This document shows, piece after piece, positions 11,726 through 59,150 of a DNA stretch of 64,000 bases. The notes under the pieces are model-generated. The model saw only the letters and a program-made list of their open reading frames with translations, was not told the DNA's origin and did not search any database. Both the position numbers and the translations under genes were made by a program. The stretch comes from Aradus depressus (taxonomy: Eukaryota; Arthropoda; Insecta; Hemiptera; Aradidae): contig OY759225.1 in the NCBI GenBank assembly GCA_963662175.1, positions 17,099,601 through 17,163,600 of the forward strand. Direction: 5' to 3'. The first letter of the stretch is position 1; each line of letters opens with the position of its first letter.

Positions 11726-12523
11726 ATGACTATAGGAACAGAATCAATTGTAAGGATATGTGTAGTTGAGGCCTCAAAAAGAAAATTCGCCATTTTGGAT
11801 CGCTATAGCGTAAAGAAAAGTCATAATGCAGCAAACGAAAAAAAAAATCGTTAATGAATATATCCCCTGTATATCCCATCGATAAATTGGTACCGAAGTG
11901 AGAGTGACTTAGTTGAAGAGTTCCAACCAATGAATAGAGAACAAAAGATGACGATCAGTTGTTTTAAATAGTGTGAAACAGTCTAAGTTGTGTTGTGGAC
12001 GTTGACAGTCTAGTGAGAGAAGTGTTTTTAGAGTTAAGGTGTAGTGAACCAGTCTGAGTGAGAGAAGATGTAGAGGAGATGTAGGAGTGAAAATAACAGT
12101 GAAGTAGATGTGCAAAGGTACTTTTATTTATTTATATGTTTATATGACCAAAATAACATTGAATTAAAGAATGGCGGCAATATTAAAAAACAAAAACAGA
12201 CTAAACTAGATGTATAAATTAGTTTGTAAGATTTTTATTGTAAGTAATTTGATTTTTTATTTGATATTAATATTTTGATTTTATTTATAATGTGGGTTTA
12301 GATAAACAAACCCAATATTTGTTCTCGTATTCTATGCTATTCATTTTCCCTGTGAACCCAGTAAGATCATTTATATCTTTGGATTAGATTTAAAATTTTT
12401 TTGAAAATTTAGGAGAACAATATGGCATCTCATTATTATATTTAGAAGAAATCCAAATTAAATAATTACTAATTGAATTTTTAATAGAAATAAAAGACGT
12501 TGTCTTCCCACTGTTTTATTTAT

Positions 12524-12565
12524 ACCAGAACCGGTTTTCGACGCAACAGCGTCATCATCAGTGGT
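12524..12565 (-). ncRNA. Hammerhead ribozyme motif, family A
   Basis: Read on the minus strand: stem I ACCA, core CTGATGA, one unpaired T, stem II GACGC-tgtt-GCGTC, core GAAA, palindromic stem III ACCGGT, then TC (cleavage after C) and stem I partner TGGT. All core bases of a type I hammerhead are present. The six-base palindromic stem III without a loop suggests activity as a dimer, as reported for minimal hammerheads in retroelements. Activity has not been tested. Confidence 0.85.
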
Positions 12566-13180
12566 TCATCTATCATAGAATAACAAAAATATACAAATAA
12601 TAAAAAGTATAAATAATTCCTAAAGCATCAGGGTACAGAGTAAAATTATAAAATAAACTTACCCACCCACACAGCACAGCGGTTGGAAGATAACTGGCAT
12701 AGCTCTAAGGGGTGGGGGTAGCCAGGTTCACTCACTCTCTCAACATGCAAAAACCATTCATTCTAATAAATACAATAAGTCTGTACACAATATTACCTAT
12801 ACATAAATTTTTTTTTAAATAAATACATAAATAAATACAATGTTAAAAATATCACATTTTATTTCTAGTCTGTGATATTTTTAACATTGTATTTATTTAT
12901 GTATTTATTTAAAAAAAATTGTATGTATAGGTTATATTATGTACAGACTTATTGTATTTATTAGAATGAATGGTAGATATTAGAATGAATGGTTTTTGCA
13001 TGTTGAGAGAGTGAGTGAACCTGGTTACCCCCACCCCTTAGAGCTATGCCAGTTATCTTCCAACCGCTGTGCTGTGTGGGAGGGTAAGTTTATTTTATAA
13101 TTTTACTCTGTACCCTGATGCTTTAGGAATTATTTATACTTTTTATTATTTGTATATTTTTGTTATTCTATGATAGATGA

Positions 13181-13222
13181 ACCACTGATGATGACGCTGT
13201 TGCGTCGAAAACCGGTTCTGGT
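13181..13222 (+). ncRNA. Hammerhead ribozyme motif, family A
   Basis: Inverted partner of 12524-12565 with the same core: ACCA (13181), CTGATGA, unpaired T, GACGC-tgtt-GCGTC, GAAA, ACCGGT (13211-13216), TC with predicted cleavage after C13218, TGGT. No core change between the two copies. Confidence 0.85.
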
Positions 13223-13514
13223 ATAAATAAAACAGTGGGAAGGCAACGTCTTTTATTTCTTTCAGAAATCTAGTCCCACAACATCTTACTATCACATATG
13301 AATTGAATTTTTTTTAAATACGTACACTTTCTTCAAAATTGCAAGTCTTGAACTTTCGACATTTTTTTAGGGCCGGAAATTACTGTAAAAAAAAAATTTC
13401 CAGCTATAATTTCTACAGAAAATGTGGTAATATTTATTATTTGTTCATTTATTATTAATTTTATTCTATTTTACATAATTTTCATTATCACAGATCATAT
13501 TTGATATATACATA

Positions 13515-13730
13515 ATTTCGAGGTAATATCGCCTATTACCAGAGGGTTGTTTTGTCGCTCTGATGGGCATGAGCCCGACTCTACTAGGGAGACCTAAATT
13601 TTTATTCATCAAGGCTAGAGGACGAGTACCTGACATTCTACAGGCTCCAGATAAAAAACCTAAGGACCTCGGCCGGGTTTCGAACTCGCGATCTTGAGCT
13701 CAGTAAGCAAGCATGCATACCACTGAGCAA
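13515..13730 (-). mobile_element. SINE1 fragment
   Basis: Minus-strand copy with a deletion of most of the middle block. Head region (complement of ggtttcgaactcgcgatctt) and A-box area (cactgagcaacaggcg) are recognisable but worn. Confidence 0.75.
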
Positions 13731-14139
13731 CAGGCGATTTGTAAGTCCCTGGATCCCACAGTATTCTCGTTGACATTTATTCAGAATAATATCTTTTCAC
13801 AGTAAGTTAGCGATTTTCTATGCATGAATAGCTCTATAGATGAACACGAGCAAAAAAAATTAATGTATAAATAATTCGTTCTAACTCATGAGAGAAAAAT
13901 AAATCGATAAGGAAGACAATAAGCTTGTCAAACATCGATAATAATCTCATTTGTACATGATGTGACTATAACACAAGTAAGCTTTGATCTGTACTCAAAT
14001 TAATTAATCCGTTATTATGACAAGTCGAACATGAAACAGTGTATTTTATGAATTCGTTTGAACCAGTGAACTGCAGTTGTAATGCAAACTGCATAAAGTG
14101 AAAATTTACCGGAATAAATTGTAAATAATGAAAAAAAAA
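13731..14139. other. Unassigned stretch
   Basis: AT-rich, no repeat family recognised and no coding signal. Confidence 0.3.
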
Positions 14140-14410
14140 ACATGATGTAACCATTACAAGACTTTCTTATACCAAACACGTTTACAGATCACACTCTCTG
14201 CCCTCCCCATCTCAAAATTATTTCATATTGACATTCATATACCCAGTAAAGTAATGAGTTGCCGTCAAATATTTTTGTTTCTTTGTACAGCGTTATCTTG
14301 AGAGTAGACATTCTTATACCCAGTAATGTCAGTATGAAATGATTTTAAGAAGGGGGATGGGGAGTGAGCGTGATTGGCATAAGAAAGTATTTTATTGGTC
14401 ACATCACATA
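14140..14410. mobile_element. MITE family P, full-length copy
   Basis: Two half-elements face each other: left gactttcttataccaaacac, right gcataagaaagtattttatt. Internal words include atttcatattgacattcata and gtcagtatgaaatgatttta, and cagcgttatcttgagagtag marks the middle. Non-coding. Same family at 1330, 43188, 50300, 54047, 56385 and 59570. Confidence 0.7.
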
Positions 14411-14479
14411 TTTTATAATTCGCTACCCGATACAATTTAAAATGTATTTTGAAATATTTCCTACAAAAAGTTATTTTTC

Positions 14480-14700
14480 ATTCTTTGAGCCACTATAACT
14501 TTAACCTTTTCTATCTCAAATCTGAGGACTACTAACGATTGGTAATTTAATAAGGAACATTTTTGATGATGCACAATTTTTCGATAGGACTAACAGTTTT
14601 CGGGTAAATAAAGGAAATGTCTAAAATTATGTGTATTTCTACACTACATTTCAAGATGGTTTTGATCGTAAAATGTACAATAATATATAAGTTAGAACAT
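14480..14700. repeat. Dispersed family E copy
   Basis: Contains tttttcgataggactaacag, ttttcgggtaaataaagg and ctacatttcaagatggtttt, repeated at 1740, 41900, 50890, 56840 and (inverted) 60290. Non-coding; class unknown. Confidence 0.55.
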
Positions 14701-14745
14701 TTGACATCTACATTCCAAATTTCAAATTTATAGCTACTTAAGACG

Positions 14746-14940
14746 ATGTTCTCAAATACAAAAGACCCTACGGGCCTTACACAAAAATCCGGCGTTTATA
14801 AAGTAAATAGTAAGAATTGTAGTTGTTTTTATCCTGGACAGACAGGCCGAAAGCTCAGGTCTGAAATGGGGGAACATTTGAGAAGGGGCGACTCGAAATT
14901 CTTCAATCTCCAAAAAACAGATGAAGGCAGCTCGGCCTAG
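14746..14940 (+). pseudogene. GIY-YIG endonuclease fragment of a Penelope-like element
   Basis: The frame reads KSGVYKVNSKNCSCFYPGQT and then GRKLRSEMGEHLRRGD. GVY and Y-x-G stand for the GIY and YIG motifs, and QTGR-x-L-R-x-x-x-x-EH fits the endonuclease that follows the reverse transcriptase in Penelope-like elements, where it nicks target DNA. Isoleucine of YIG is proline here, the arginine usually found before the MGEH helix is glutamate, and the first cysteine of the C-x-x-C linker is serine, so this copy is unlikely to be active. It ends at a stop after DEGSSA. Confidence 0.85.
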
Positions 14941-15089
14941 TTGCAACACAATACCCCCAAAAAAGTAGAAATATTCATATAAATATTTTAGAAAGTACAG
15001 AGATACTACTGTATCTACTCGGATTCTCTAGAAGCTACCCAAAAAGTGCTTGAGGGTGTCAAAAGAAGGACTTGTTTTCCCTTAAGAGG

Positions 15090-15311
15090 ATGTTCTCAAA
15101 TACAAAAGACCCTATGGGCCTCACACACAAATCCGGCGTTTATAAAATAAATAGTAAAAATTGTAGTTGTTTTTATCTTGGACAGACAGGCCGGAAGCTG
15201 AGGACTTGGATGGGGGAATATTTGAGAAGGGGCGACTCGAAATTCTTCAATCTCCAAAGTACAAATGAAGCCGACTCAGCCTCGTTGTTACACAATACCC
15301 CCAAAAAGTAG
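15090..15311 (+). pseudogene. Second GIY-YIG endonuclease fragment (Penelope-like)
   Basis: The frame reads KSGVYKINSKNCSCFYLGQT and then GRKLRTWMGEYLRRGDSKFF, continuing NLQSTNEADSASLLHNTPKK to a stop. It is closer to the family than the 14746 copy (leucine in YIG, alanine-rich tail kept), but the conserved arginine is tryptophan and the histidine of the EH pair is tyrosine. Both copies lack the upstream polymerase. Differences between them show the duplication is not recent. Confidence 0.85.
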
Positions 15312-15841
15312 AAAATTTTATATAAATATATTACAATGTATAGAGATACAATTGAAAAGGAAGAAAGGTCCCCCCTCCTCAATTCTAGAGAGGGGGTTAG
15401 TTCTTCTGCTCTCCCACACACCGTACTGCCTGTGACTCAGATGGAGAACAGGAATAACGTGTATATCCCTTTCCATGATATTTTAAATAATTAATTTTAT
15501 TTCAATTAAAAATATATGCTTTCACCACCTATATCGATCTAAATTTCAATTTTGTCTCTTATCGATTATATCAGTTTAGTGCACTCGTTTAACAGTTACA
15601 GTAATGAGTAACTACTAAATGACTAGTATTATCTAAAATGACTAGTACTTACTAAGTGTAGACTGCAATTACCTGTAACAGACAATCATTTTCATTAATA
15701 ATATGTTTATATTACTTTACAAATAGATATTTACAACTGTATAAAAAATAAATAAAACAAGCAAATGTGCTAATATAGAGATAATGGCAATGTCAAGAGG
15801 AAAGAAATCACCCAGTGGTGACACTCCCTAGTCATTGAGTT

Positions 15842-16130
15842 TTTTTTTTTTTTTTTGCACGGTCAATCACCCGGCCCGGCTATTAACGTCGGGGAAGAGG
15901 AAGTGGAATGCTGAATTGTATTTTTAATAAGAATTTGTTGCTATGTGTGTCTGGGAGAGGCAGCCCTTAGTCCTTTACAGGACAGACTGGCGCTCCCAGA
16001 CCTCCTCTTCGTTGCGGCTGCCAGGCGGCGCCGAGAGAGCTCGAGGTCGTTGGAGTGGACTGCTTCTACATCGGGGAAGAATTCAGGCTAGGCCCGTCAA
16101 ACGCCCCCGGCGCCGGGTCAAAAGGCCTTT
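15842..16130 (-). mobile_element. SINE3, complete GC-rich retroposon
   Basis: 289 bp between exact copies of gtcattgagtt (15831-15841 and 16131-16141), with poly-T at the left, so a minus-strand retroposon with a poly-A tail. GC-rich against its AT-rich surroundings: gttgcggctgccaggcggcg, cccccggcgccgggtc. No clear A or B box. It may be a SINE or the 3' end of an unidentified LINE. A related older copy is at 6301-6560. Confidence 0.85.
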
Positions 16131-16183
16131 GTCATTGAGTTACTCTTATTTGTAACTAATCACTGTCACTGTCACTGCTGCAG

Positions 16184-16679
16184 CACAGAGTGAAATTTAT
16201 GAGTTTTGATTTTCAAAATTCGAGCCCCCGCTCAATTGTTGATCAATTTGATGAAACTAGGTGCAAAATATTTATGAAAGCTGGTTTTTTATCAGATAAC
16301 TTCGGGTTTCACAATGAAGGTATCACATATAAGCCAGTGGCAAAAATAGCCAATATTTTGAATTTGGACCACTTTAGGTCAAAATGACAACATTAGGACC
16401 ACTTTTGGCTAAAATAAATATTGAATTCGTAATCAGCAACCCAAAAAACATTAATTTAAGTTGTAAAAATCCGTTAACGAAAACAAACAAAATAAATTAA
16501 AATTTTCGCGGGGTTTTGGCAGCTGTCAATTGGCAAATAATACCTTGATTGTGAAACCCGCAGTTACCTGATAAAAAGCCAGCTTTCACAAATATTTGCA
16601 CCGAGTTTCATCCAAATTGATCAAAAATTGAGCGGGGGCTCGAATATTGAAAATCAAAACTCATAAATTTCACACTGTG
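16184..16679. mobile_element. hAT-like MITE
   Basis: 496 bp with inverted ends cacagagtgaaatttatgag and (complement) cacagtgtgaaatttatgag, continuing for over 100 bp through attcgagcccccgctcaatt. The flanks tgctgcag (16176-16183) and tgctgctg (16680-16687) form an 8-bp target duplication with one difference, as for hAT. No transposase. Confidence 0.8.
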
Positions 16680-16725
16680 TGCTGCTGCTAAGGTGGTCTC
16701 TAGGCCATTGAAGCTTAAGCCATCG

Positions 16726-16927
16726 TTTTTTTTTTTTAATTGGCCTTGGCAAACACCACACTAGCCATCCATGTGTTATTTAGTTAGTTTTAAGACATCC
16801 ATGGCCCTGGGAGGGAGTTCTATCTACGAAATAAAACTCACTCCCGGACAGGATTCGAACCCGCAAACCATGGTGAGACCATGCGACCAAAGCCCTACGC
16901 TCTAGCCCGCACGGCCAGCATGGCTCC
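16726..16927 (-). mobile_element. SINE2 copy
   Basis: Minus-strand SINE2 with poly-T left end, B-box complement cgggattcgaac-type sequence and head ending at ccagcatggctccc. Target duplication cttaagccatcg / cttaagccgtcg (16714-16725 and 16928-16939), one difference. Confidence 0.9.
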
Positions 16928-17121
16928 CTTAAGCCGTCGTTGTGGAAGTGTGGCACGGACTAGATGGTTATTTTTATGCTTGGATTTAGCAACTTCGAGT
17001 GACAAAAGGTACGTTAAGGTCAGTGTGAAGAATTTAGTTGGAGACGTAATAAGGAGCATTAGCTATTGTACGAAGGATTTTGAATTGAAAGGATTGTCTG
17101 CGCTCGAGATTGGAAGCCTTG

Positions 17122-17540: not shown

Positions 17541-17750
17541 ACAGGTTATAAAATAAAATATAGTCTGACCTATCACAGATTTTATTGATATTTGCTAGCC
17601 GGCTTTCGCGGTTGCCCTCATCATCAGGCAGTCTTATGAAACTTAAAAAATTTAAATAAAAATGCATAAAAACTATCTTAAAAAACTAACAACTTTAACA
17701 ATTTAAAATTGCATGGATGTGGACAGATATCTTATTCCTGTCCCCCATCT
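17541..17750 (-). mobile_element. Penelope-like short element with hammerhead (family B), single copy
   Basis: Shares ctcacaggttataaaataaa, atagtctgac, gctagccggctttcg and ttaaaaaatttaaataaaa with the foldback at 45294-45673. Here only one half is present. Confidence 0.7.
17593..17630 (-). ncRNA. Hammerhead ribozyme motif, family B
   Basis: Minus strand: stem I TGC, CTGATGA, unpaired T, stem II GAGG-gcaa-CCGC (one mismatch), GAAA, palindromic stem III GCCGGC, TA (cleavage after A), stem I partner GCA. The core is intact; the stem II mismatch is repaired in the 45.5-kb copy (GAGG/CCTC). Confidence 0.75.
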
Positions 17751-17837
17751 GAGTCCCCCCCCTAATTTGGCTGAAAAACAGTAAGGGTCGTCTTTATAGA
17801 GATATATGTGTATCCATATTTCTTAATCAAATGTCAG

Positions 17838-18305: not shown

Positions 18306-18329
18306 CAAAATTAGGTTTCTGAGAACCTT

Positions 18330-18602: not shown

Positions 18603-18666
18603 ATTAATTTATTCATTTACCATAACCATTAATACGTGCTCCCTAAACAATTATATAGTCATGAAA

Positions 18667-22109: not shown

Positions 22110-22120
22110 ATCATTAAAAT

Positions 22121-22707
22121 ATGTCCGATATCTAGGACTTCATTTAGACAGACGTTTAACTTGGATGACTCATATCAGACTGAAACGCACAGACCTCAAA
22201 AGACGATTTGGACGACTGAAATCAATCATCGGACGACGATCGACATTATCGCTTGAAAACAAACTTCACATTTACAACACTATACTAAAACCCATCTGGA
22301 CTTACGGAATCGAGATATGGGGATCAGCCAAAAAATCAAACATACAACGCCTTCAGTCATTACAATCCATCATACTACGCCACATTGCCAATGCCCCATT
22401 TTACGTTTCCAACCTCACATTACATAATGACCTCAACATCCCATTTGTACCTTCTGTTATCAAGACACGGTATCAACATTTTCACGACAAACTCCATCAT
22501 CACGCCAATCCACTTATTCTCCAATTATCCACGAATCCGCCAAGACGTCTAAAGCGGACATGGCAGAGGGAACTGCTCCAGGACTAGCCTGGACTCCTCT
22601 TCGGGCACGTACCTCAGCAGTACAGCGACACACTTGCCACAGCACATCATCACAATCACTAGTGACAAATGTTGTCGTTGTGAATATGTAAATAAATAAA
22701 TAAAAAA
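22121..22707 (+). mobile_element. 5'-truncated jockey-type LINE insertion
   Basis: 587 bp bounded by exact atcattaaaat (22110-22120 and 22708-22718). It ends in an aataaataaataaaaaaa tail. The 3' UTR is short (about 120 bp) and unlike that of the 3399/7098/15700 copies, so this is a different jockey subfamily. Confidence 0.92.
22123..22587 (+). pseudogene. Jockey-type reverse transcriptase C-terminus, open frame
   Basis: Uninterrupted from the truncation point: VRYLGLHLDRRLTWMTHIRL, then YNTILKPIWTYGIEIWGSAK, NAPFYVSNLTLHNDLNIPFV and the tail PPRRLKRTWQRELLQD before the stop at 22587. It holds the post-polymerase region only; no catalytic FADD box and no endonuclease. Lack of stops and the clean target duplication suggest a fairly recent insertion. 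It is dead on arrival from 5' truncation and not a host gene. Confidence 0.9.
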
Positions 22708-28916: not shown

Positions 28917-30084
28917 TTTTTATAGCATTTGGTTAGTTATCATGACTCATGCCGCTAATATCGCGTACCAGAGCGCTCTTTCGTCGCTATAACTCAATAT
29001 TTGGCTTACATAGTGGCTTCTGAATCCTCATAATAGATTTTGGTTGGTTAGTTACTATGATTCATGCCCGGGCTTCAAATACAAGCTAATATCGCGTACC
29101 AGAGCGCTCTTTCGTCGCTATAACTCAATATTTGGCTTACATAATGGCTTCTGAATCCTCATAATAGATTTTGGTTGGTTAGTTACTATGATTCATGCCC
29201 GGGCTTCAGCTCCGAGCTAATATCGCGTACCAGAGCGCTCTTTCGTCGCTATAACTCAATATTTGGCTTACATAGTGGCTTCTGAATCCTCATAATAGAT
29301 TTTGGTTGGTTAGTTACTATGATTCATGCCTGGGCTTCAGCTTCGAGCTAATATCGCGTACCAGAGCGCTCTTTCGTCGCTATAACTCAATATTTGGCTT
29401 ACATAGTGGCTTCTGAATCCTCATAATAGATTTTGGTTGGTTAGTTACATTCATGCCCGGGCTTCAGCTTCAAGCTAATATCGCGTACCCGAGCGCTCTT
29501 TCGTCGCTATAACTCAATATTTGGCTTACATAGTGGCTTCTGAATCCTCATAATAGATTTTGGTTGGTTAGTTACTATGATTCATGCCCGGGCTTCAAAT
29601 ACGAGCTAATATCGCGTACCAGTGGGCTCTTTCGTCGCTATAACTCAATATTTGGCTTACATAGTGGCTTCTGAACCCTCATAATAGATTTTGGTTGGTT
29701 AGTTACTATGATTCATGCCCGGGCTTCAAATACGAGCTAATATCGCGTACCAGAGCGCTCTTTCGTCGCTATAACTCAATATCAGGCTTACATAGTGGCT
29801 TCTGAATCCTCATAATAGATTTTGGTTGGTTAGTTACTATGATTCATGCCCGGGCTTCAAATACGAGCTAATATCGCGTACCAGAGCGCTCTTTCGTCGC
29901 TATAACTCAATATTTGGCTTACATAGTGGCTTCTGAATCCTCATAATAGATTTTGGTTGGTTAGTTACTATGATTCATGCCCGGGCTTCAAATACGAGCT
30001 AATATCGCGTACCAGAGCGCTCTTTCGTCGCTATAACTCAATATTTGGCTTACGTAGTGGCTTCTGAACCCTCATAATAGATTT
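28917..30084. repeat. 131-bp satellite, nine copies
   Basis: Units begin at 28917 (shorter), 29041, 29172, 29303, 29434 (127 bp), 29561, 29692, 29823 and 29954. Each unit joins a minus-strand SINE1 3' piece (catgcccgggcttca, accagagcgctctttcgtcg) to a non-SINE piece (ataactcaatatttggctta, cttctgaatcctcataatag) that also occurs near 44330 and 57510. Units differ by only a few bases, so the array is young. Confidence 0.95.
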
Positions 30085-30592
30085 TGTGCCAATAAATTAC
30101 AAAACGGTAGTTCAACACCTTGGATTCCCCTCCCAGGAACATCTTCGACTGCCGGCATGTGGTCTTTTCTGTCCATGTACGCTCCAAAAGATCCTTAGTC
30201 CACTCTCATATATATGTACATATAGGTATATATTTACTTTGACATATGATGAGCAATGGTGCGTTCTCCCCAGTTGTTCTCTGCGAATACATTTCGTCGC
30301 CCACGACCCACAGAAGACTACTTATGGAAAAGCCCACGTACCGATACACGACATTGACATTGACCGTACCATATAGACTCAAACATATCCTATTTTAGAA
30401 GCCCTTTTAAAAAAACCTTGAAAAAACCAGTTCATATTGTTTTTCGTTTTCTTTTTCTTTTCTTGGACGGTATCTGAAGAAGGGTGTGTTAAGACACGAC
30501 AAGGTTGGACTTTCAAAAACAATTAACTAATTGAATCTCATTATTTCACTTGTTAATTTTTACTTTCAGCAAATTTCTTTAGTAGTAAGGAA
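30085..30592. other. Unassigned stretch with a 96-codon frame
   Basis: Bases 30086-30376 are open and more GC-rich than the flank, with two cysteine-rich patches but no recognised domain. A lost exon or retroelement piece cannot be told apart. 30470-30515 reads ctgaagaagggtgtgttaag-acacgac, which only loosely resembles a hammerhead. Confidence 0.2.
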
Positions 30593-32190: not shown

Positions 32191-32231
32191 GCCAACGTTT
32201 CGATATATATTTTATACCATCATCAGGGCCT
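32191..32231 (-). ncRNA. Hammerhead ribozyme motif, family C
   Basis: Minus strand: stem I GCC, CTGATGA, unpaired T, stem II GGTATA-aaata-TATATC (one wobble), GAAA, two-base stem III CG, TT (cleavage after the second T), stem I partner GGC. Core intact. Confidence 0.75.
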
Positions 32232-33673: not shown

Positions 33674-33737
33674 ATCTCATCGGTCCTATCTCAAATCTGA
33701 AGACAGCGTTTGGAAATGAACAGCAAACATTTTTGGT

Positions 33738-34209: not shown

Positions 34210-34251
34210 ACCAGAACTGGTTTTCGACGCAACAGCGTCATCATCAGTGGT
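34210..34251 (-). ncRNA. Hammerhead motif, family A, stem III changed
   Basis: Minus strand core CTGATGA, GACGC-tgtt-GCGTC, GAAA, then ACCAGT in place of the palindrome ACCGGT, TC and TGGT. Core and stem I are intact; stem III is weakened for self-dimer formation. Confidence 0.7.
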
Positions 34252-34310: not shown

Positions 34311-34352
34311 ACTGTAGATGACGCTGTTGCGTCGAAAACCAGTTCTGGTCTA
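34311..34352 (+). ncRNA. Decayed hammerhead motif, family A
   Basis: Partner of 34210-34251. The first core block reads ctgtaga instead of CTGATGA, so cleavage is not expected; the second block GACGC-tgtt-GCGTC-GAAA is intact. Confidence 0.6.
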
Positions 34353-34687
34353 AAATAAAACAGTGGAAAGACAACATCTTGTATTTCTATGAGAATACAT
34401 GAAATGATCTCCTGACAAACGTAAACGATTATGTTACCTATATTATCCATCGAAAACCGGTTGTGGTCTAAAATAAAACAGTGGAAAGACAACATCTTGT
34501 ATTTCTATGAGAATACATGAAATGATCTCCTGACAAACGTAAACGATTATGTTACCTATATTATCCATCGAAAACCGGTTCTGGTCTAAAATAAAACAGT
34601 GGAAAGACAACATCTTGTATTTCTATGAGAATACATGAAATGATCTCCTGACAAACGTAAACGATTATGTTACCTATATTATCCATC
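34334..34687. repeat. 118-bp tandem repeat, three units
   Basis: Units at 34334, 34452 and 34570, nearly identical, each ending tgttacctatattatccatc. Part of the Penelope-like structure. Confidence 0.92.
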
Positions 34688-34928
34688 GAAAACCGGTTCT
34701 GGTCTAAAATAAAACAGTAGGAAGACAATCTCTTTTATTTCTATGAGGTCTCGACCCACAACACCCTACTATCACATATGATTTAATGTATTCATTGTTG
34801 ATCTAGAATGGCCCGGGTCATGTTCTATTATGTAACCATGTTATTCGAACGTGCGAAAATGAAAATCCGAGATGGAGTTTTTACCGAAATTTCACGTTTC
34901 CAGTTTTTTTCATTTTTGCGATGATGTT

Positions 34929-37224: not shown

Positions 37225-37262
37225 GCCAACTTTTCGATATATTTCATATCATCATCAGGGCC
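37225..37262 (-). ncRNA. Hammerhead ribozyme motif, family C
   Basis: Minus strand: GCC, CTGATGA, unpaired T, stem II GATAT-gaaat-ATATC (perfect), GAAA, AG, TT, GGC. Stem III is AG instead of CG, so its pairing is lost; the core is otherwise intact. Confidence 0.7.
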
Positions 37263-37786
37263 TAACAAACATGGGGGAATCAAGATTACAAAAATATAAT
37301 GAGTGATTGATTAAAATGATATATAGGTACATAAATATACATTCACACATACACAAATCCACATAAATACATAAATATACATCCATATACATACACATAC
37401 ATATACACATTGATGAAAAACAAGGAAACTTACTATGAATATAGATGGTTGAGGAGAAGGCAAGAAGACTGTGAAGTCTTACGTTCAACTAAGGGTACAG
37501 AAGGGTCGAGGGTAACAGATAATAAATCCAGGGAAAACCCCAGTTAACGGCACTTAAAACTACCTACTGGCTAACAGATATTCTACTATGTTAAGAAAAA
37601 AAAAAACTCTATAATTAAGTATATAAATAGGAACATAATTTAACTTATTAATTAAATGAAGAATTTTAGACAGAATGTAGACACTGAAACTACAGTCGCT
37701 AGCAAACATCTACTCAAATGGACTTGAAAAATAAAATAAAACTTGTTTATTTTATATATTGTCTAATTTCACTAACTATATATACA

Positions 37787-37822
37787 TGGGAGTACTTTCG
37801 GTATTTCTACCATCCTCAGCCA
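37787..37822 (-). ncRNA. Hammerhead ribozyme motif, family D
   Basis: Minus strand: stem I TGG, CTGAGGA, unpaired T, stem II GGTA-gaaa-TACC, GAAA, palindromic stem III GTAC, TC (cleavage after C), stem I partner CCA. All elements present. Confidence 0.82.
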
Positions 37823-37836
37823 AAAGCATAAGAGAT

Positions 37837-37872
37837 GATCTGAGGATGGTAGAAATACCGAAAGTACTCCCA
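37837..37872 (+). ncRNA. Hammerhead motif, family D, without stem I
   Basis: Same core as its inverted partner (CTGAGGA, GGTA-gaaa-TACC, GAAA, GTAC, TC), but the bases before CTGAGGA are GAT and do not pair with CCA. Reduced activity is expected. Confidence 0.7.
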
Positions 37873-38429
37873 TGTATATATAGTTAGTGAAATTAGACAA
37901 TATATTAAATAAACAAGTTTTATTTTATTTTTCAAGTCCATTTGAATTATTTCACAATATCTCTGCAATAATGTCAGTTTTCATCTACTCAAATAATTGT
38001 GTAGACTCCGGAAAAGATGGTAATCTGCGGGGGCTAAATCAGGCGAATAAGGTGGGTGAGCCATAATTTCCCAAACAAAGCCATAGATTTTTGTAATCGT
38101 GTTTTTGGCAGTGTGAGGCCTTGCGTTGTCCTGATGAAACAAAACTTCAAGTCTTCTTACTAAAGGCCGTTTTTCTGAAATATCTTGATTTAAACGGTCA
38201 AGCTGTTGACAGTAGACCTCTTTGGTGATCGTTTCATTTGTGAATTATGCCTCCCATATCCCACCAAACAGAAAGCAAAACCTTTTCGGGATGGAGGCCT
38301 GCTCTAGGCTGAGGTATTGGTTCTTGCCCTGGACTGAGCCATTGTCTAGAACGCACAACATTGTTGTAATGAACCCACTTTTCGTCACTAGTGAGGATCC
38401 TAGCGAGACTCTTTAAGCCTAGAGATTAA

Positions 38430-38807
38430 TTAAGAGCAAATGGAGATACGCCCTCTAAGATTTGCCTCGCTAAGCTCATGTGGCAGCCATTTTCCTAATT
38501 TGGAAATTTTTCCGATCTGATGGAAATGCCGGTGGATGGTGGAATGGGTTGATTCAAGTTTGTTGGCAAGTTCTTCATCTGTTACAGCTGGATTTTCTTC
38601 AACTGCAGCTCTCAGAAGATCCTCGTCTAATTGAACAGGTCGGCCTGAGCGATGCTCGTCTATAAGGTCGAAATGTCCACCTCGAAATTTTTCAAACCAT
38701 CGTTGCACCTGCCTCTCACTTATTTGACCCTCGCCATAAACGTCTTCAATTTTTCGATGCATGGGAGCCGCTTTTTCGCCAGGGTCGGGCCCCCATCTCA
38801 TAGTCAT
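38430..38807 (-). pseudogene. Mariner transposase, N-terminal part
   Basis: The frame reads EDVYGEGQISERQVQRWFEK, RGGHFDLIDEHRSGRPVQLD, ELANKLESTHSTIHRHFHQI and GKWLPHELSEANLRGRISIC. These are the paired helix-turn-helix domains of a mariner transposase, with the RSGRP linker and the WVPHEL-type (here WLPHEL) hallmark. Full mariner transposases are about 345 residues; this frame ends at about 125. The catalytic part survives only as shifted fragments below 38430 (a DNARPHTA-like region near 38100 and a YSPDLAP-like region near 38050). Inactive transposon gene. Confidence 0.92.
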
Positions 38808-38830
38808 GTGCTATATTATAATTACATGCT

Positions 38831-39887: not shown

Positions 39888-39939
39888 ATATACACATTAT
39901 AAAATCAATAATTGATTTTATAATGTGTGTATATTTTGG
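39888..39939. repeat. Short perfect foldback
   Basis: aatatatacacattataaaa and its complement lie around the centre tcaataattga. About 24-bp arms. Confidence 0.8.
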
Positions 39940-39949
39940 ATAATTATTA

Positions 39950-40430
39950 TCATTACCGACCTCTCTGGACCTATGGCTTACAAATATATGGTACAGCCAA
40001 GACTTCGAACATCAAAAGAATACAGGTATTTCAATCCAAGACTCTCCGACTGATCACGCAATGCCCACCATACGTTAGCAACAAGACTTTACACCGCGAC
40101 TTGAACACCACACCCATAGACACAAACATTAAACATTTATACCATCGTTTCTACACCAAAATTTACTTACACACCAATCCAGAAGTTCGCAAAATCCTAA
40201 GTATTTTACCCCACAATCCCCCAAGAAGATTAAAGAGAGTTTGGCAAGAGATCTCCTGGTATGAAGTGATGTCATGAGGGCTCACCGCTGGGTGTTTTTC
40301 CTCTCTCAAGCCTTTCATGTCATATTTATTTTTATTATTTTTGTATATTACAGGTCAGCCCAGCCGCTGGTTGTGCACTTTTTTTACATAGGTGTGGCTT
40401 TAAATAAATAAATACAAAAAAAAAAAAATT
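39950..40430 (+). mobile_element. Jockey-type LINE 3' end
   Basis: Coding end followed by a 3' UTR of about 140 bp and an A13 tail (40418). Begins directly after the foldback at 39888, in the middle of the codon series for the LWTYGLQ word. Confidence 0.88.
39954..40277 (+). pseudogene. Jockey-type reverse transcriptase C-terminal fragment
   Basis: The frame reads RPLWTYGLQIYGTAKTSNIK, FQSKTLRLITQCPPYVSNKT, LHRDLNTTPIDTNIKHLYHR and ends PPRRLKRVWQEISWYEVMS. Same region as 22123-22587 but diverged: the NAPFYV word is QCPPYV. No stops interrupt it. It is 5' truncated, with no polymerase or endonuclease core. Confidence 0.88.
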
Positions 40431-43818: not shown

Positions 43819-44284
43819 TAGGTTAGGTTTTATGACTCATGCCCGGGCTTTAACTACGAGGTCATATCGCCTACTACCAGAGCGCTCTTTCGTCACTCTG
43901 ATGGACATGAGCCCGACTCCACTGTGGGAGTCCTAAATTTTGCCTACCCTAAATTTTTATTCATCTAAGGTAGGGGTCTTTAACGAGTACCTGACATCGT
44001 ACAGGCTCGGGACCATCGCTTAAAGTCCCATTCGAAGGACGGCGTGCTTAAGTTTATTTTACCTCCCAAATAAAATAAACTAAAAGGCCTCGGTCGGGTT
44101 TCGAACCCACGATCTTGAGCTCAGAAGACAAGCTGAGCTACCGGCGCCCTCTGTGGAGGTCCGATGTGTCCCGCGGTCACGATGACTCAAAGACATTTGT
44201 CTGCCCTTCCAAAAGGCGCGAAGCTCTTTAAGAGAACTACAATGTTCTTAGCCCTCACCCCAAAGTGTCTACTTTGTGCGCAAT
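43819..44284 (-). mobile_element. SINE1 chimera with an extra 132-bp 5' segment
   Basis: A SINE1 copy (43819-44152) with a ggttaggttttat tail. Exact duplications ccctagaaacggt stand at 43806-43818 and at 44285-44297, which is 132 bp beyond the SINE head. The inserted unit therefore includes the segment 44153-44284, upstream of the head in sense orientation. The host sequence is a family G copy (aaccctagaaacgg-tctatgtaatg), which reads on correctly when the whole 466 bp is removed. A small deletion removed part of the A-box region. Confidence 0.85.
44153..44284 (-). other. Unidentified 132-nt segment fused to SINE1
   Basis: Sense strand starts attgcgcacaaagtagacac and ends gggacacatcggacctccac-ag, directly before the SINE head. 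Near-balanced GC unlike its surroundings. One frame is open for about 29 codons. I did not recognise it as 5S, 7SL, U1-U6 RNA or tRNA. It is probably a cellular RNA or mRNA piece picked up by template switching. Confidence 0.6.
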
Positions 44285-45280: not shown

Positions 45281-45319
45281 TACTTCAATTATTTCACAGG
45301 ATGTCAAATATAAGATAGT

Positions 45320-45355
45320 CTGACGCTTTCGAGGTTCCCTCATCCTCAGGCAGTC
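45320..45355 (-). ncRNA. Hammerhead motif, family B, truncated
   Basis: Minus strand: CTGAGGA, unpaired T, stem II GAGG-gaa-CCTC, GAAA, GC and then a deletion that removes the rest of stem III and the cleavage site. Confidence 0.65.
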
Positions 45356-45537
45356 TGATAAAAAATTAAAAAATTTTGAATAAAACTAAATAATATAATA
45401 AAAATAAATAAATATCAATCTAAAACATTAACAATTTAAAATATCATGGATTAAATTGTTAATGTTTTAGATTGTTATTTATTTATTTTTATTATATTAT
45501 TTAGTTTTATTCAAAAAAATTTTAATTTTTTATCAGA

Positions 45538-45580
45538 CTGTCTGATGATGAGGGAAACCTCGAAAGCCGGCTAGCTATTA
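45538..45580 (+). ncRNA. Hammerhead ribozyme motif, family B
   Basis: CTGATGA (45542-45548), unpaired T, stem II GAGG-gaaa-CCTC (perfect), GAAA (45562), palindromic stem III GCCGGC (45566-45571), TA. Stem I is weak (TGT against GCT). Confidence 0.75.
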
Positions 45581-45792
45581 CTACCAATAAAAATCTGTGA
45601 GAGGTCAGACTATTTTATATTTGACATCCTGTGAAATAATCCCTTCTCACTACATCAGCCATCTTCATATTATTACTTCAATTATTGTTTTTTATTTCAT
45701 TTAACACGAGTCAACTGTCTGTAGGTAGGTGTATGTATAAAAAATACACTGAATTTCAGTATACAATGGAAATTTTAACATGTCTAAATAAG

Positions 45793-46269: not shown

Positions 46270-46391
46270 GCTTCTGGGTGAGAGCAACCTTGAAAGCGTG
46301 CTAGCACAAATGTAAAACTATGTTTATTAAAATAAATATTACAATTTGGCATCCCCACAAGGGATGCCAAATTGTAATATTTATTTTAATA
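46270..46391. repeat. Decayed hammerhead (family B) and a 31-bp perfect foldback
   Basis: 46273-46306 reads ctgggtgagagcaacc-ttgaaagcgtgctagca, alignable to family B but with CTGATGA broken. Then 46325-46355 and 46361-46391 are perfect 31-bp inverted copies around cacaa, with ttacaatttggcatccc and complement. Probably the remaining half and centre of another head-to-head pair. Confidence 0.6.
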
Positions 46392-46954: not shown

Positions 46955-47687
46955 AAAATTCGCACGAATACAAACAAATTTATAAAAAGACTACCTAGAA
47001 AGAACGAGTTTCTGAAGTCGGTTAAACCTCAAATCGACACTGCTGATGTGACGTCTCTTTCCCGGAAAGAAATAATGGTCCTGACGAGGCTAAGAGTCGG
47101 ACACACTTGGCTTACTCATGTTCACATTTTATTGCGGAGACGCCCACCACTATGCAAGGAAGAACTTACTGTCTTCCACATACTACAGTCCTGTGAAGCT
47201 CTCAAACCTTATCGAGAAAGAGATGGATAGCCTCATGATGTTAGGTTTAGGTTAGGTTTTATGACTCATTTTATTACGACCGGGCTTTAACTACGAGGTC
47301 ATATCACCTGCTACCAGAGCGCTCTTTCGTCACTCTGGTGGACATGAACCCGACTCTACTGTGGGAGTCCTAAATTTTGTCTACTCTAAATTTTTATTCA
47401 CTTAGGGTTGGGGTCTTTAACAAGTACCTAACATCGTACAGGCTCGGGACCATCGCTTAACGTCCCATCCGAAGGACGGCGTGCTTAAGTTTATTTTACC
47501 TCCCAAAATAAACTAAGGGCCTCAGTCGGGGTACGAACTCACGTTCTTGATCTCAGAAGTCAAGCACGCATACCACTGAGCTACCGGCGCCCTCGCCTCA
47601 TGATGTTCGAGCAGCTGAAAGATAGCTCGGCGTACACATCTCAGCTGTTGCAATTCTTGCGAAACACTGGTCTGTATCACCAATAAA
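46955..47687 (+). pseudogene. I-like LINE ORF2 C-terminus, interrupted
   Basis: The frame reads SLSRKEIMVLTRLRVGHTWL, THVHILLRRRPPLCKEELTV and FHILQSCEALKPYRERDG; after the SINE1 insertion it continues MMFEQLKDSSAYTSQLLQFL and RNTGLYHQ to the stop at 47687. LTRLR-x-GHT and PPLC...VFHIL-x-x-C are the post-RNase-H zinc-knuckle region of I-type LINEs. The cysteines are incomplete because a few residues are lost after PPLC, and one stop (TAG) precedes the SINE. Inactive remnant. Confidence 0.88.
47243..47594 (-). mobile_element. SINE1, complete, inside the LINE
   Basis: Exact duplications gcctcatgatgtt (47230-47242 and 47595-47607). The tail aggtttaggttaggttttat is kept; small insertion near 47270. 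Inserted in LINE coding sequence. Confidence 0.93.
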
Positions 47688-50018: not shown

Positions 50019-50225
50019 TTGGTTAGGTCTTATGACTCATGCCCGGGCTTTAACTAGGAGGTTATATCACCTACTACTAGAGCGCTCTTTCGATAATCTG
50101 ATGGGCATGAGCCCGACTCGGCGTACTTAAGTTTATTTTACCTCCCAGGACCTCGGTCGGGTTTCGAACCCACATTCTTGAGCTCAGAAGACAAGCAAGC
50201 AAACCACTGAGCTACCGGCGCCCTC
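50019..50225 (-). mobile_element. SINE1 with large internal deletion
   Basis: Exact duplications tacagtgaaaggt (50006-50018 and 50226-50238). 207 bp: the 3' part joins gcccgactcggcgtacttaa, skipping about 135 bp of the middle. The duplication shows that the loss is either in the source RNA or a later deletion. Confidence 0.92.
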
Positions 50226-53407: not shown

Positions 53408-53456
53408 TGTGACTGACCTCTCAGGAGGTCAGGAGCACCCAACAAAAAAAAAAAAA
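53000..53456 (+). mobile_element. R1-like LINE 3' end
   Basis: GC-rich against AT-rich flanks, ending in an A-rich tail at 53441-53456. Encodes the region below. Confidence 0.85.
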
Positions 53457-54046: not shown

Positions 54047-54218
54047 ATAGGCCATTATAGGACATTCTTATACGCGCTTACGGATCACTCTTTCACCCCC
54101 TTCTCAAAATAATTTTATACTGGCATAACTGGACACATGAAAGTAATGGGCGTCAGCGGTATTTTTTTGTTTCATTGTACAGCGTGGTTCTGAGTAACTT
54201 TTCTATACCCAGTATGAG
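54047..54218. mobile_element. MITE family P, truncated copy
   Basis: ggccattataggacattctt, ttttatactggcataactgg and ttcattgtacagcgtggttc; the right end is lost. Confidence 0.65.
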
Positions 54219-54433
54219 AGGGCGCCGGTAGGGATCTATCGATACAAGTAAAGTATCGATACTTTTCTTTCGATACCCAAGTAGGTATCGAATAGATAAT
54301 AATTGTATCGATTCAAATTTCAACAATTAAAAAAAATTATGTAAATTTTTCAATTCGTCAAAATCGTTCACCGTTTAATTTATTACAATTTTCTTTTATT
54401 TGTTGTTGCAGTAAAATACTGAACTCAAATTCC
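54219..54433. mobile_element. SINE1 head remnant and hAT end
   Basis: gagggcgccggtag at 54219 is a SINE1 head. From 54234 tagggatctatcgatacaag is the right-end inverted repeat of the hAT at 4094-5040, and 54330-54430 matches its interior (gaactcaaat..., cagtaaaatactgaact). A partial copy of that hAT. Confidence 0.75.
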
Positions 54434-54620
54434 GGTCCACGGACAAACGATACCGGCAGGTCGGTTCCATACGACAAGTGTTGGACACATGATTTGTGTT
54501 GGATACATTTGAGTCTTCAGTGTGAAAGCCCCCATTGATTTCTCGGTTTCATTCTCGGGGACAAATGTGTCCAACACGTGTGGCGTCGCATGTCGCTCCG
54601 GTGTGAAAGCCACCTTAGAG
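54434..54620. mobile_element. MITE with gtgtccaac repeats
   Basis: acaagtgttggacacatgat and its near complement gacaaatgtgtccaacacgt face each other; the right end reads ggtgtgaaagccacctta and the complementary sense is tggctttcacaccggagcga. Type unassigned. Confidence 0.4.
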
Positions 54621-55537
54621 TCTGACACACATGGATTAGAATTAAAAATTCTACTAAAAAATAAAATGAAATAAATAAATACTTAAAAATATGAGTACAA
54701 AAATAATAATATTCTGTATGTCTAAGCGTCTGTATGTCGTTGAACAATATTACGGCAAAATGTAGAACTAGTATATATATATACTAGTTCCTTTAGTAGC
54801 ATAGATACTCATATTTAAACTTTACAATTAATGCAGACCAAAATTTTACGAGTGAGCGATATAACCAAAAACTATAATTCTCTCGCTTGTGCTGGGTACT
54901 AATAACATAATTTATGTAGGATCAATAGAAATTTTTATGTTCTTATCATCTTCAACATTCTGAGTGCGTGTCATATAAAGAACTTGATGGTTATGTCTGT
55001 GCACATAAATTTTATGACTGATGAGACTGAATGTAATGAAAACGAAATGTCCAACATTAAATTTTGGGACTTAGTAGCAGTATTGTCGTATCTCAATCAC
55101 GGTATCTACACCTAATATTGGTTTTAAGTGTTGGCCACAATTTTAATTTTAATTTACTGCTGCCTGGAACTTCACGAAATTCGATATTGAGTTTTCACAG
55201 GAATTTCATCATGTTCAATCCCTTGACTTTAAAATTGAAAAAAAAAAAGTTTATGTCGATTTGTGGGCGTCTGTAGCGACACAAAATTTTAATTTTTTTA
55301 ACTAGAACCCCAAAACGACAGCACTTATTTCTAGTCAAATTCACAAAGGAAATAAGAGGATTATAGGGAGAAGAGGGCTTAACACAAATGCCTTAATAAC
55401 TGCCGATGTAATGGATATCGCCAAGAAATTTTATATGTGAACTCAAATGCCCATGAGGACTAGACCTATACATTTTCAGCCAGATATATTGATTTTCAGT
55501 CAAATCGTTAAATTTGGTTAAGAGGGTGACCAAAAAA
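54621..55537. other. AT-rich region with family G
   Basis: 55320-55520 is family G (taactgccgatgtaatggat). No gene; a 70-codon frame at 55064 has no domain. Confidence 0.35.
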
Positions 55538-55758
55538 CTCATGCCCGGGCTTTAACTACAAGGTCATATCGCCTACTACCAGAGCGCTCTTTCGTCACTC
55601 TGGTGGACATGAGCCCGACTCTACTATGGGAGTCCTAAATTTTGCCTACCCTAAATTTGTATTCACCTAGCCTAGTGGTCTTTAACGAGAACCTGACATC
55701 GTACAGGCTCCATTGCTTAGAGCCCCATTCGAAGGACTGCGTGCATGGTCAACGTAAT
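55538..55758 (-). mobile_element. SINE1 fragment
   Basis: 3' part to the middle block (agccccattcgaaggactgc); head missing. Confidence 0.85.
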
Positions 55759-56066
55759 TTCCACCTTTCAAATCAAAAACTAAACAAGTACGCATACCAT
55801 TAATTTGTAAATATGTTTTTTTGTGTTCACTTATTATTTTTTTCAGCATGATTGATTGCTGACTTACTTTGCATAGTACATAAAATTAATAAAAAAGGAA
55901 TTGTAATATAATTTTAATATAAAAATAATATTATTTCAAGAGCATAGAGGGGGAAAGAGAGTATCTTAAGTCTTCCCGATAACAGATATTATAAAATAAC
56001 AGACTGCCTGCCAGAAAAAGTCCCAGTTTCGTTGTATGACTCTCACTTTTAAAAGATAGCACTTTA
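55759..56066. other. Unassigned AT-rich stretch
   Basis: Nothing recognised. Confidence 0.3.
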
Positions 56067-56080
56067 AACTGTTATAACTG

Positions 56081-56280
56081 GAGCCATGGTGGCCGTGCGG
56101 GCTAGAGCGTAGTGCTCTGGTCGCATGGTCTCACCATGGTTTGTGGGTTTGAATCCCGTCCGGGAGTGAGTTTTATTTAGTAGATAAAACTCCCTCCCGG
56201 GGCCATGGATGTCGTAAATAACTAGATACACAGTGACATGGCTAATATGCATCGTACATGAGGCCAAAAAAAAAAAAAAA
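56081..56280 (+). mobile_element. SINE2, complete copy
   Basis: gagccatggtggccgtgcgg to an A18 tail; exact 14-bp duplication aactgttataactg (56067-56080 and 56281-56294). B-box gggtttgaatcccgtccggg. The reference copy for SINE2 ends. Confidence 0.95.
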
Positions 56281-56384
56281 AACTGTTATAACTGCTATTT
56301 AAAAATAGCAGTAATGGCAGTTACACAAAAACAGTGCCTTTTTACTATCTACAAAATGACTACAGGCGATTTTCGAAAAATATA

Positions 56385-56475
56385 CCTGACGTGGACAATA
56401 CAAGATTTTCTTATACCAACAACGCTTACAAATCATTCTCTCTCTTTCCCCTTTTCAAAATCATTTCATTCCATT
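56385..56475. mobile_element. MITE family P fragment
   Basis: caagattttcttataccaac to ccccttttcaaaatcatttc; only the left half. Confidence 0.65.
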
Positions 56476-57112
56476 TCGGTTAATCCAATCGATAATATAA
56501 TGTTACTAACTATACATTTTACTATAGAGCAGGTATTGATGGTTTTCCTATGTTTCCCCGTTGAAGTAGGTGCATGTTCCCCTCACAGCTCATGACCGCA
56601 GCCCATTCAATTTGCATTCAGACAGGTGACTATAGTTAGTAGATCCCCTCGTTTTAAGGTGCAATATAGGCCAGTTAGCACTAATTGTTGTGGGAAGTGC
56701 GCCCTCTCATGTGGTCACCTTGCGGTTTCAATATCCCACCCAACACAACAGAATTGCATTTAATTTACCTACCTCACTACCTCATTCTAGTCCACAGTCG
56801 CAAAGGATACAAAACGAAATTTTGTCGTCTCTTTTGTATCTCTAATTTGAGGACTTAGTAATGATTGGAAATTTTATAAGTAATAATATTGGTAAGAATC
56901 AATTTTTCGATAGGACTAAAATTTTTCGAGTAAATTTAGGGAACGTCTAAAAATAAGTGTTTCAAAACATTTCAGGATTTATATGAAACAAATAAAAAGA
57001 ATTAAAGGAGAATCACCGGCTATGTACTTCCCCAGCATGTATTAATCAATTACATTTTCGCTTTTCCTCCAAAACCAATCGACCATTCTGGCTAAAACTC
57101 AATATTTCACTT
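56476..57112. other. Unassigned, with family E and family G pieces
   Basis: 56840-56975 is family E (ttttcgataggactaaaatt). 57000-57110 is family G border (gagaatcaccggctatgtac-ttccccag). 56560-56770 is more balanced in composition, with no family recognised. Confidence 0.35.
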
Positions 57113-57114
57113 AT

Positions 57115-57494
57115 ACAGGGTGATTCCCTCGTAACTTTAAAAAAGGTGAGGTTTAAATTGAGGTGAAACTAGACCGAAAATGGAGTAGAATGCCAACCGC
57201 ACCTTTCTATCTCAATCCGTTGCCGAGATATAACTTTTTTTTAAAAATGTTTCGAGAAAACCACGTTTTTTGCCATCAAGTCCCACATTTCTCCCCTTTA
57301 AATCAACTTTTCTCAACTTTTGACCACATTTTCAATTTCCAGTGGGTCTTGATGACAAAAAACGTGGGTTTCTCGAAAAAGTTTTTGAAAAATCGTATCT
57401 CGGCAACGGATTGAGATAGAAAGATGTGGTTGGCGGCATTCTACTCCATTTTCAGTCTAGTTTCATCCAATTAGGTTACGAGGGAATCACCCTG
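57115..57494. mobile_element. Tc1/mariner-type MITE, foldback
   Basis: Ends cagggtgattccctcgtaac and complement, flanked by TA (57113-57114, 57495-57496). The arms extend about 160 bp (atctcaatccgttgccgaga, aaaaaacgtgggtttctcga and complements). Inserted in a family G copy. Confidence 0.92.
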
Positions 57495-58638
57495 TATATT
57501 GGCTTCTGAATCCTCATATTAAATTTTGTATATTACGATACATACACATCGTCAGTTATTTGGGTATTTGAGACGACTCCTCCTTTTTTCCTCTTCCTCT
57601 TCCCTTTGACCGATTTTTGAGTCCCTCACCTCCGGCCGATTCCGCTGAAAATTAATAGGTATCATTCTTATGGGGCTTTGAATTTAATTAAATATAAAAT
57701 ATCATGTGAGACATTCATTACTGACAGTTATTGGGATTTTTGAGTCCCTCACCTCCGGCCGATTCCGCTGAAAATTAATAGGTATCATTCTTATGGGGCT
57801 TTGAATTTAATTAAATATAAAATATCATGTGAGACATTCATTACTGACAGTTATTAGGATTTTTGAGTCCCTCACCTCCGGCCGATTCCACTGAAAATTA
57901 ATAGGTATCATTCTTATGGGGCTTTGAATTTAATTAAATATAAAATATCATGTGAGACATTCATTACTGACAGTTATTGGGATTTTTGAGTCCCTCACCT
58001 CCGGCCGATTCCGCTGAAAATTAATAGGTATCATTCTTATGGGGCTTTGAATTTAATTAAATATAAAATATCATGTGAGACATTCATTACTGACAGTTAT
58101 TAGGATTTTTGAGTCCCTCACCTCCGGCCGATTCCACTGAAAATTAATAGGTATCATTCTTATGGGGCTTTGAATTTAATTAAATATAAAATATCATGTG
58201 AGACATTCATTACTGACAGTTATTGGGATTTTTTAGTCCCTCACCTCCGGCCGATTCCGCTGAAAATTAATAGATATCATTCTTATGGGGCTTTGAATTT
58301 AATTAAATATAAAATATCATGTGAGACATTCATTACTGACAGTTATTGGGATTTTTGAGTCCCTCACCTCCGGCCGATTCCGCTGAAAATTAATAGGTAT
58401 CATTCTTATGGGGCTTTGAATTTAATTAAATATAAAATATCATGTGAGACATTCATTACTGACAGTTATTGGGATTTTTGAGTCCCTCACCTCCGGCCGA
58501 TTCCGCTGAAAATTAATAGGTATCATTCTTATGGGGCTTTGAATTTAATTAAATATAAAATATCATGTGAGACAAATAAATAAAACAAACTTATTTTTGA
58601 AATATTGTCTATTCCACTAAAGATATATATACATATAT

Positions 58639-58673
58639 AACTACCGGTTTCGGCTTTATACCATCGTCAGGTC
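58639..58673 (-). ncRNA. Hammerhead ribozyme motif, family E
   Basis: Minus strand: stem I GAC, CTGACGA, unpaired T, stem II GGT-ataaa-GCC (one wobble), GAAA, palindromic stem III CCGG, TA (cleavage after A), stem I partner GTT (one wobble). Confidence 0.75.
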
Positions 58674-58690
58674 TAGTTATGAACTAACTA

Positions 58691-58725
58691 GACCTGACGA
58701 TGGTATAAAGCCGAAACCGGTAGTT
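58691..58725 (+). ncRNA. Hammerhead ribozyme motif, family E
   Basis: Exact inverted partner of 58639-58673: CTGACGA at 58694-58700, GAAA at 58713-58716, CCGG at 58717-58720, predicted cleavage after A58722. Confidence 0.75.
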
Positions 58726-59150
58726 ATATATGTATATATATCTTTAGTGGAATAGACAATATTTCAAAAATAAGTTTGTTTTATTTATTTATTACAAGTT
58801 TCCACAATATGTCCGCGTTTCTCAACTTAGATCATGTGAGACATTCATTACTGACAGTTATTGGGATTTTTGAGTCCCTCACCTCCGGCCGATTCCACTG
58901 AAAAGTAATAGGTATCATTCTTATGGGGCTTTGAGTTTAATTAAATATAAAATATCATGTGAGACATTCATTACTGACAGTTATTGGGATTTTTGAGTCC
59001 CTCACCTCCGGCCGATTCCGCTGAAAATTAATAGGTATCATTCTTATGGGGCTTTGAATTGAATTAAATATAAAATATCATGTGAGACATTCATTACTGA
59101 CAGTTATTGGGATTTTTGAGTCCCTCACCTCCGGCCGAGGTATCATTCCT

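Follow-up and report, generated by a model that had tools for sequence, protein, structure and literature searches.

Hammerhead ribozymes of Penelope-like elements (PLEs), including forms without helix III (PMC6155905, PMC7761336), have already been published, as have the inverted pseudo-long terminal repeats (pLTRs), the one-sided tails and the target-site duplications (TSDs) of these elements. For the Penelope element of Adineta vaga, self-priming was inferred from palindromic head-to-head junctions, and discriminating experiments were requested (PMC3846280). The PLE known as PAc, from Anolis, cuts and extends both strands of its target, and its reverse transcriptase (RT) starts at two sites in vitro (PMC11167929). 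Here we examine a 64-kb stretch of the genome of the insect Aradus depressus (contig OY759225.1, positions 17,099,601 to 17,163,600; hereafter the window), in which an earlier note had placed 14 hammerhead sites in five sequence families, A to E, together with the host genome (698 Mb, 74 contigs). The window adds members to this published set: its insertions are short and non-coding, and several of them are head-to-head foldbacks.

We consider it probable that the motifs are hammerheads of PLE pLTRs, that the foldbacks arose by two-sided priming, and that RNA cut by the ribozyme ended the cDNA at the cleavage site. We also lean towards a more specific claim, namely that PLE RNA is cut in vivo by the hammerhead, either ahead of reverse transcription or while it proceeds, and that a foldback consists of two cDNAs, one per target strand, which were primed at two fixed RNA sites, often on two RNAs, and joined head to head. 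The PLE RNA would start roughly 12-19 nt upstream of the ribozyme core. The PLE protein would make a staggered cut, and both 3' ends would prime reverse transcription on PLE RNA, one at an outer site, which would give the tail, and the other about 43 nt further upstream. Each cDNA would then extend to the 5' end of the RNA or halt early, and the two cDNA ends would be joined head to head via microhomology or filler, sometimes from two different RNAs. Where the RNA had already been cut by the ribozyme, the cDNA would end exactly at the cleavage site. If this is true, the template would have two alternative 5' ends, one set by the ribozyme and the other by the transcription start.

The 5' ends of the family E arms were located relative to the cleavage site. 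An end 26-60 nt upstream of it was found in 31 arms (88 listed), and 20 of these 31 lie at -48 to -41, which places them 12-19 nt 5' of the core (CTGACGATGG); we therefore infer that transcription starts there. E arms meeting at the cleavage site itself were found at 10 places in the genome, and the reversed pattern gave 1. Each of the ten loci is an insertion flanked by repeats of 8-16 bp, with one arm tailed and the other tailless. They hold 20 arms, of which 19 were counted since the plus-strand arm of L078 reads far through. Twelve of the 19 end precisely on the G that follows the predicted cleavage, while the remaining ones end one nt (2 arms), two nt (1 arm), four nt (2 arms) or seven nt (2 arms) before that G, and in five of the ten loci both arms are at position 0. 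When random ends were simulated under the same pattern constraint, P was about 1e-6 by arm and 1e-7 by locus. In addition, an internal piece at L076, which is probably a template jump, starts at the same post-cleavage nucleotide. Judged by their sequence, the ten family E junctions suggest a scar of ribozyme cleavage in vivo.

The same junctions could be expected if the RNA remained uncut and the RT stalled on RNA structure at the hammerhead site, an explanation that we regard as unlikely. The hammerhead motif is indeed structured, and the insertion of PAc in vitro needs no cleavage (PMC11167929). However, a stall at the predicted GCCG/CGGU hairpin should leave the scissile A or more, whereas the G after the scissile A is the commonest end (12/19) and only 2 of the 19 arms have their end one nt before it.

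The outer ends of the arms also fall at fixed points. Among 23 E-type foldbacks examined, the best flanking repeat was at least 8 bp in 19, being 12-13 bp in 12 of these, and all 19 have one tailed and one tailless arm, with outer ends at reference positions 136-143 and 81-103, respectively (in L016 the outer end is 109 prior to subtracting the 13-bp TSD overlap). The E tail is 40-45 nt long. Of the four E-type foldbacks without a TSD, L010 and L011 are truncated at the outer end and L017 and L067 are two-tailed; the L067 foldback lies inside a far larger palindrome with arms of over 400 bp. Six of seven B-type foldbacks likewise have one tailed and one tailless arm, ending at 128-131 and 91-102. 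L062, which is among them, turned out to be complex, with a head-to-head B pair (1219-8409) that has two tailless ends and a separate tailed piece on the left, all within a single 12-bp flanking repeat. These two outer end points match the pair of RT start sites and the tail that were described for PAc (PMC11167929).

The lengths of the two arms bear on self-priming, in which a single cDNA or antisense RNA folds back upstream and is copied, so that one arm duplicates the other. If one arm were copied from the other, the tailed arm would have to extend further 5' as well. Of the 27 loci examined, L062 was set aside because of its two tailless ends and separate tailed piece. In the remaining 26, the tailless arm is longer at its 5' end by 3 nt or more in 13, the tailed arm, as self-priming requires, is the longer in 8, and the arms are within 2 nt of each other in 5; when a TSD of 8 bp or more is demanded, 21 loci remain and the numbers are 10, 7 and 4. 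The tailless arm of L040 measures 788 nt against 156 nt for the tailed arm, and in L049 and L050 a whole additional 2819-bp unit is found on the tailless side. The count includes L065, L069, L070, L072 and L074, in which a TSD was not sought. It leaves out L048 (TSD unclear), L010 and L011 (outer end truncated), L017 and L067 (two tails), L019 and L024 (close upstream reference lacking), L051 and L061 (extending beyond the fetched stretch), and L009, L023, L063, L064, L073 and the window's A1, B2 and D (upstream reference or clear tail lacking). In the 13 of 26 loci where the tailless arm is the longer at the 5' side, the arms cannot have been copied one from the other, and this result contradicts the published self-priming.

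In favour of self-priming, palindromic junctions are common, the arms are often near-identical, and the E junction of the window, with a 5-nt loop and a 3-bp closing stretch, would suit a snap-back. On the other hand, the junctions of L011, L026 and L027 have no loop, and some arms derive from different subfamilies: the arms of L027 differ at 7 sites, each being within 2-3 sites of other loci, the upstream parts in L010 and L013 are different haplotypes, and the arms of L028, by their sequence, probably come from different subfamilies or haplotypes as well. Self-priming would survive only if the tail of the first arm were usually trimmed at one fixed point after synthesis, and we find it quite improbable. 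The overlap of the two arms at the junction is 3-7 nt in 8 of the 26 loci. Internal deletions or repeated short arm pieces resembling RT template jumps were seen in L014, L060, L075, L076 and L083. The arm lengths and the arms of mixed origin fit a model in which each target strand primed a cDNA at its own RNA site and the two were joined afterwards.

Several observations weigh against two-sided priming on ribozyme-cut RNA. Frangieh and colleagues saw no RNA-seq ends at the hammerhead site of PAc, and they found that the hammerhead was uncleaved without protein and that cleavage was unneeded for insertion in vitro (PMC11167929). The cleavage-site search covered family E, with a pattern that begins at the post-cleavage G, so that arms ending downstream of it were unsampled, and in family B just two arms end near the site, at +2 and +13 instead of 0. 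In the window itself, the E copy ends in the upstream cluster instead of at the cleavage site. The TSD-less E-type foldbacks L017 and L067 carry two tails. When the two arms were compared in 20 foldbacks, 11 showed a difference at 0-1 site, which is equally expected of a single template. Finally, the foldbacks are not a random sample, most of them having been taken from GIY-YIG matches or from the initial 6.2 Mb of contig 1.

In the window, foldback insertions of families A (A1), B (B2), D and E have TSDs of 12, 13, 13 and 13 bp, respectively, and each has a similar tail on one arm. The borders of the E insertion are fixed by the phase of the satellite around it, which makes it the cleanest copy; the 123-bp satellite array (57612-58574 and 58831-59138, about 98% alike) is split by it. 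The features of the window are as follows.

12471..13312, A1 foldback insertion; 12-bp TSD at 12471-12482 and 13301-13312, right-arm tail at about 13270-13300
12528..12561, minus strand, A hammerhead motif, A1 left arm
13185..13218, plus strand, A hammerhead motif, A1 right arm; cleavage predicted after C13218
17596..17627, minus strand, B1 motif, solo arm with broken stem II
32194..32226, minus strand, C hammerhead motif; inverted partner not found within the window
34214..34247, minus strand, A hammerhead motif, A2 left arm
34312..34345, plus strand, decayed A motif (core CTGTAGA), A2 right arm
34332..34747, plus strand, 118-bp tandem array of A pLTR pieces, which begin within stem II and are without core
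37228..37258, minus strand, C hammerhead motif, second copy
37707..37994, D foldback insertion; 13-bp TSD at 37707-37719 and 37982-37994, right arm tailed
37790..37819, minus strand, D hammerhead motif, left arm; predicted cleavage at C37790
37840..37869, plus strand, D hammerhead motif, right arm; stem I pairs not found
45281..45686, B2 foldback insertion; 13-bp TSD at 45281-45293 and 45674-45686, right arm tailed
45325..45349, minus strand, B motif, B2 left arm; stem III and cleavage region gone
45542..45573, plus strand, B hammerhead motif, B2 right arm
46274..46303, plus strand, decayed B-like motif, core gone
58562..58843, E foldback; 256-bp insert (58575-58830) in the 123-bp satellite array, 13-bp TSD at 58562-58574 and 58831-58843
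58642..58670, minus strand, E hammerhead motif, left arm
58694..58722, plus strand, E hammerhead motif, right arm; cleavage predicted after A58722
58791..58830, plus strand, one-sided E tail (TTTCCACAATATGTCCGC region)

Short, non-coding, inverted and flanked by TSDs, the foldbacks could also be viewed as an independent non-autonomous family, MITE-like (miniature inverted-repeat transposable element) or retrozyme-like, that moves as a unit. However, the central junction varies from copy to copy, a single one being common to L026 and L027, and most foldbacks therefore formed anew. Moreover, coding PLEs of the host genome have ends that match the foldback arms. As for retrozymes, whose repeats are direct and tandem with a hammerhead in each, the window's sole tandem array of pLTR pieces (A2) has no core in its repeated units. 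We hold such a family to be very improbable. The earlier note had proposed that the inverted pairs allow ribozymes to arise from both strands of one locus, which is correct as geometry, but the inversion itself is better explained by the mode of insertion.

To count the hammerhead cores of the window, a descriptor consisting of CTGANGA, 0-1 bulged base, a stem II of at least 3 bp and GAAA was used. It gave 12 matches, whereas 100 dinucleotide shuffles gave a mean of 0.26 and a maximum of 2. Eleven of the 12 belong to the 14 sites listed before and represent all five families, while the match at 33697, absent from that list, is apparently due to chance. Core and stem II are thus kept at 11 of the 14 sites. 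The other three have decayed: at 34311 the core reads CTGTAGA, at 17593 (B1) the core is whole with a disrupted stem II (GAGG/CCGC), and at 46270 the core is gone. One extra T following CTGANGA, as had been pointed out, is seen just before stem II in all 11 intact sites, and the predicted cleavage positions C13218, C37790 (minus strand) and A58722 were counted correctly. Nine of the 11 sites have 2-4 stem I pairs; in the right arm of D and the left arm of B2 no such pairs were found. The claim that the five contexts are unrelated was not borne out: the flanks of D and E are similar by eye and A1, B2, D and E display one insertion anatomy.

A search of the window against Rfam gave no match at gathering scores; relaxing the E-value to 10 brought up microRNA and other chance matches but no hammerhead family. 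A sequence search of the PDB gave no match. Predicted folds of the monomers did not display the hammerhead. In predicted dimers of the A and window B motifs, stem II was kept and the palindrome paired intermolecularly, while for C, D, E and the B motif of L049 this combination was not kept. The folding predictions therefore give neither support for nor exclusion of a hammerhead. PLE hammerheads reportedly act as dimers through a palindromic stem III, a finding ascribed to Lunse in 2017, and the window motifs are probably dimer-type ribozymes. As read from the sequence, they are predicted to be minimal type I hammerheads of PLEs.

Genome-wide, the strict motif CTGANGATGN{8,20}CGAAAC matched 17,308 times (8790 + 8518), and the reversed pattern 31 times (18 + 13). 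The pairing of stem II was assessed in 39 distinct motif strings, 34 from 100 listed genome places and five from the window. Paired bases occupied 101 of the 117 stem II cells, whereas 10,000 reshufflings of the 3' strands gave a mean of 84.7 and a maximum of 96. The register without the extra T gave 45 paired cells, and that one base further 40. Pair 1 was set by the search pattern in 34 of the 39 strings and many strings are near-variants; the covariation signal therefore sits in pairs 2 and 3 and comes from fewer than 39 independent cases. With this limit, the stem II covariation described earlier holds, and the many distinct motif types agree with the idea that several PLE lineages are present in the genome. 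With about 17,000 motif copies, and each foldback having its own junction, TSD and tail, the genome lends itself to tests by counting ends, and the copies may let both the mechanism of PLE insertion and the in vivo activity of the ribozyme be read from DNA.

To identify coding relatives, the genome was searched for the GIY-YIG domain, which gave 1852 first-look candidates; all 150 that were scored passed the cut-off. The coding context was read in 14 fetched PLE loci, and all three proteins scanned contain both RVT_1 and GIY-YIG domains. The B motif is located 147 nt after an 859-codon open frame and again ahead of the next frame, and the B units form 2819-bp tandems in four loci (L049, L050, L052 and L053), so that the pLTR is present both as direct tandem copies and as inverted ends. 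The E motif is found 331-336 nt past its open reading frame (ORF) in five loci (L055-L058 and L060). In L055, a B-type foldback (4664-6171) lies between two E elements, and in both of its arms the match to the B reference sets in only at 39 nt upstream of the cleavage site. A search with the B protein gave 359 relatives with E-values up to 0.001 among 8000 candidates scored and yielded PLE-like RT proteins; the first species-named one among the 120 matches listed is a Schistocerca gregaria protein, 29% identical to B. We take these RT proteins to be those of PLEs from the domain pair (RT and GIY-YIG). A PLE origin, which had been suggested for all the families, is thus borne out for B and E, whose coding relatives in this genome carry the same ribozyme next to their ORF. 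In the case of A and D, the label rests on the shared insertion anatomy and would follow by analogy, and for C it rests on the motif and on three C-like foldbacks elsewhere (L009, L063 and L064). The possibility that the extra T is the U of the AUG of the ORF, as in PAc, was rejected for B and E by the ORF sequence: the first Met of the B ORF is 150 nt after the core, and the E sequence reads ATG GTA TAA.

The window contains further repeats: a 131-bp tandem array at 28954-30086 (about 8.7 copies, 96% alike), a perfect 31-bp tandem repeat at 10261-10398 (4.5 copies), and a dispersed repeat (624-702, 13663-13741, 44084-44162, 47516-47594 and 50147-50225) that by eye looks like a tRNA-derived short interspersed nuclear element (SINE). 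ARAGORN found no tRNA in the window, including in the SINE-like repeat. Open frames at 3604-3999, 22111-22587 and 39924-40277 presumably represent the end of a non-LTR (Jockey-type) RT, and the one at 38430-38810 (minus strand) we take to resemble a mariner-type transposase.

Within the literature available to us, neither genomic ends at the hammerhead site nor a test based on arm lengths had been described, although Cervera 2014 and Lunse 2017 may contain such a report. Like metazoan non-LTR retrozymes, the insertions combine a type I hammerhead with a low G+C content; the retrozymes, however, repeat directly in tandem, with one ribozyme in every unit and classical tertiary contacts (PMC7229834), whereas here minimal ribozymes lie in the inverted arms of coding PLEs. 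The foldbacks share with the Penelope of A. vaga head-to-head inverted pLTRs, a one-sided tail, TSDs and palindromic junctions, but the tail is 31 bp and the TSD 8-10 bp in A. vaga (PMC3846280), in contrast to 40-45 nt in E and mostly 12-13 bp in the present foldbacks. The likeness to PAc of Anolis, which belongs to Penelope/Poseidon (PMC11167929), includes an ORF with RT and GIY-YIG domains, tandem copies, a hammerhead next to the start of the ORF, a tail that separates two RT start sites, and the use of both target strands. In PAc, however, the ORF starts in the ribozyme (AUG = A9-U-G), while the first Met of B is 150 nt past the core, and ends at the cleavage site, of which that paper reports none for PAc, are seen here in E.

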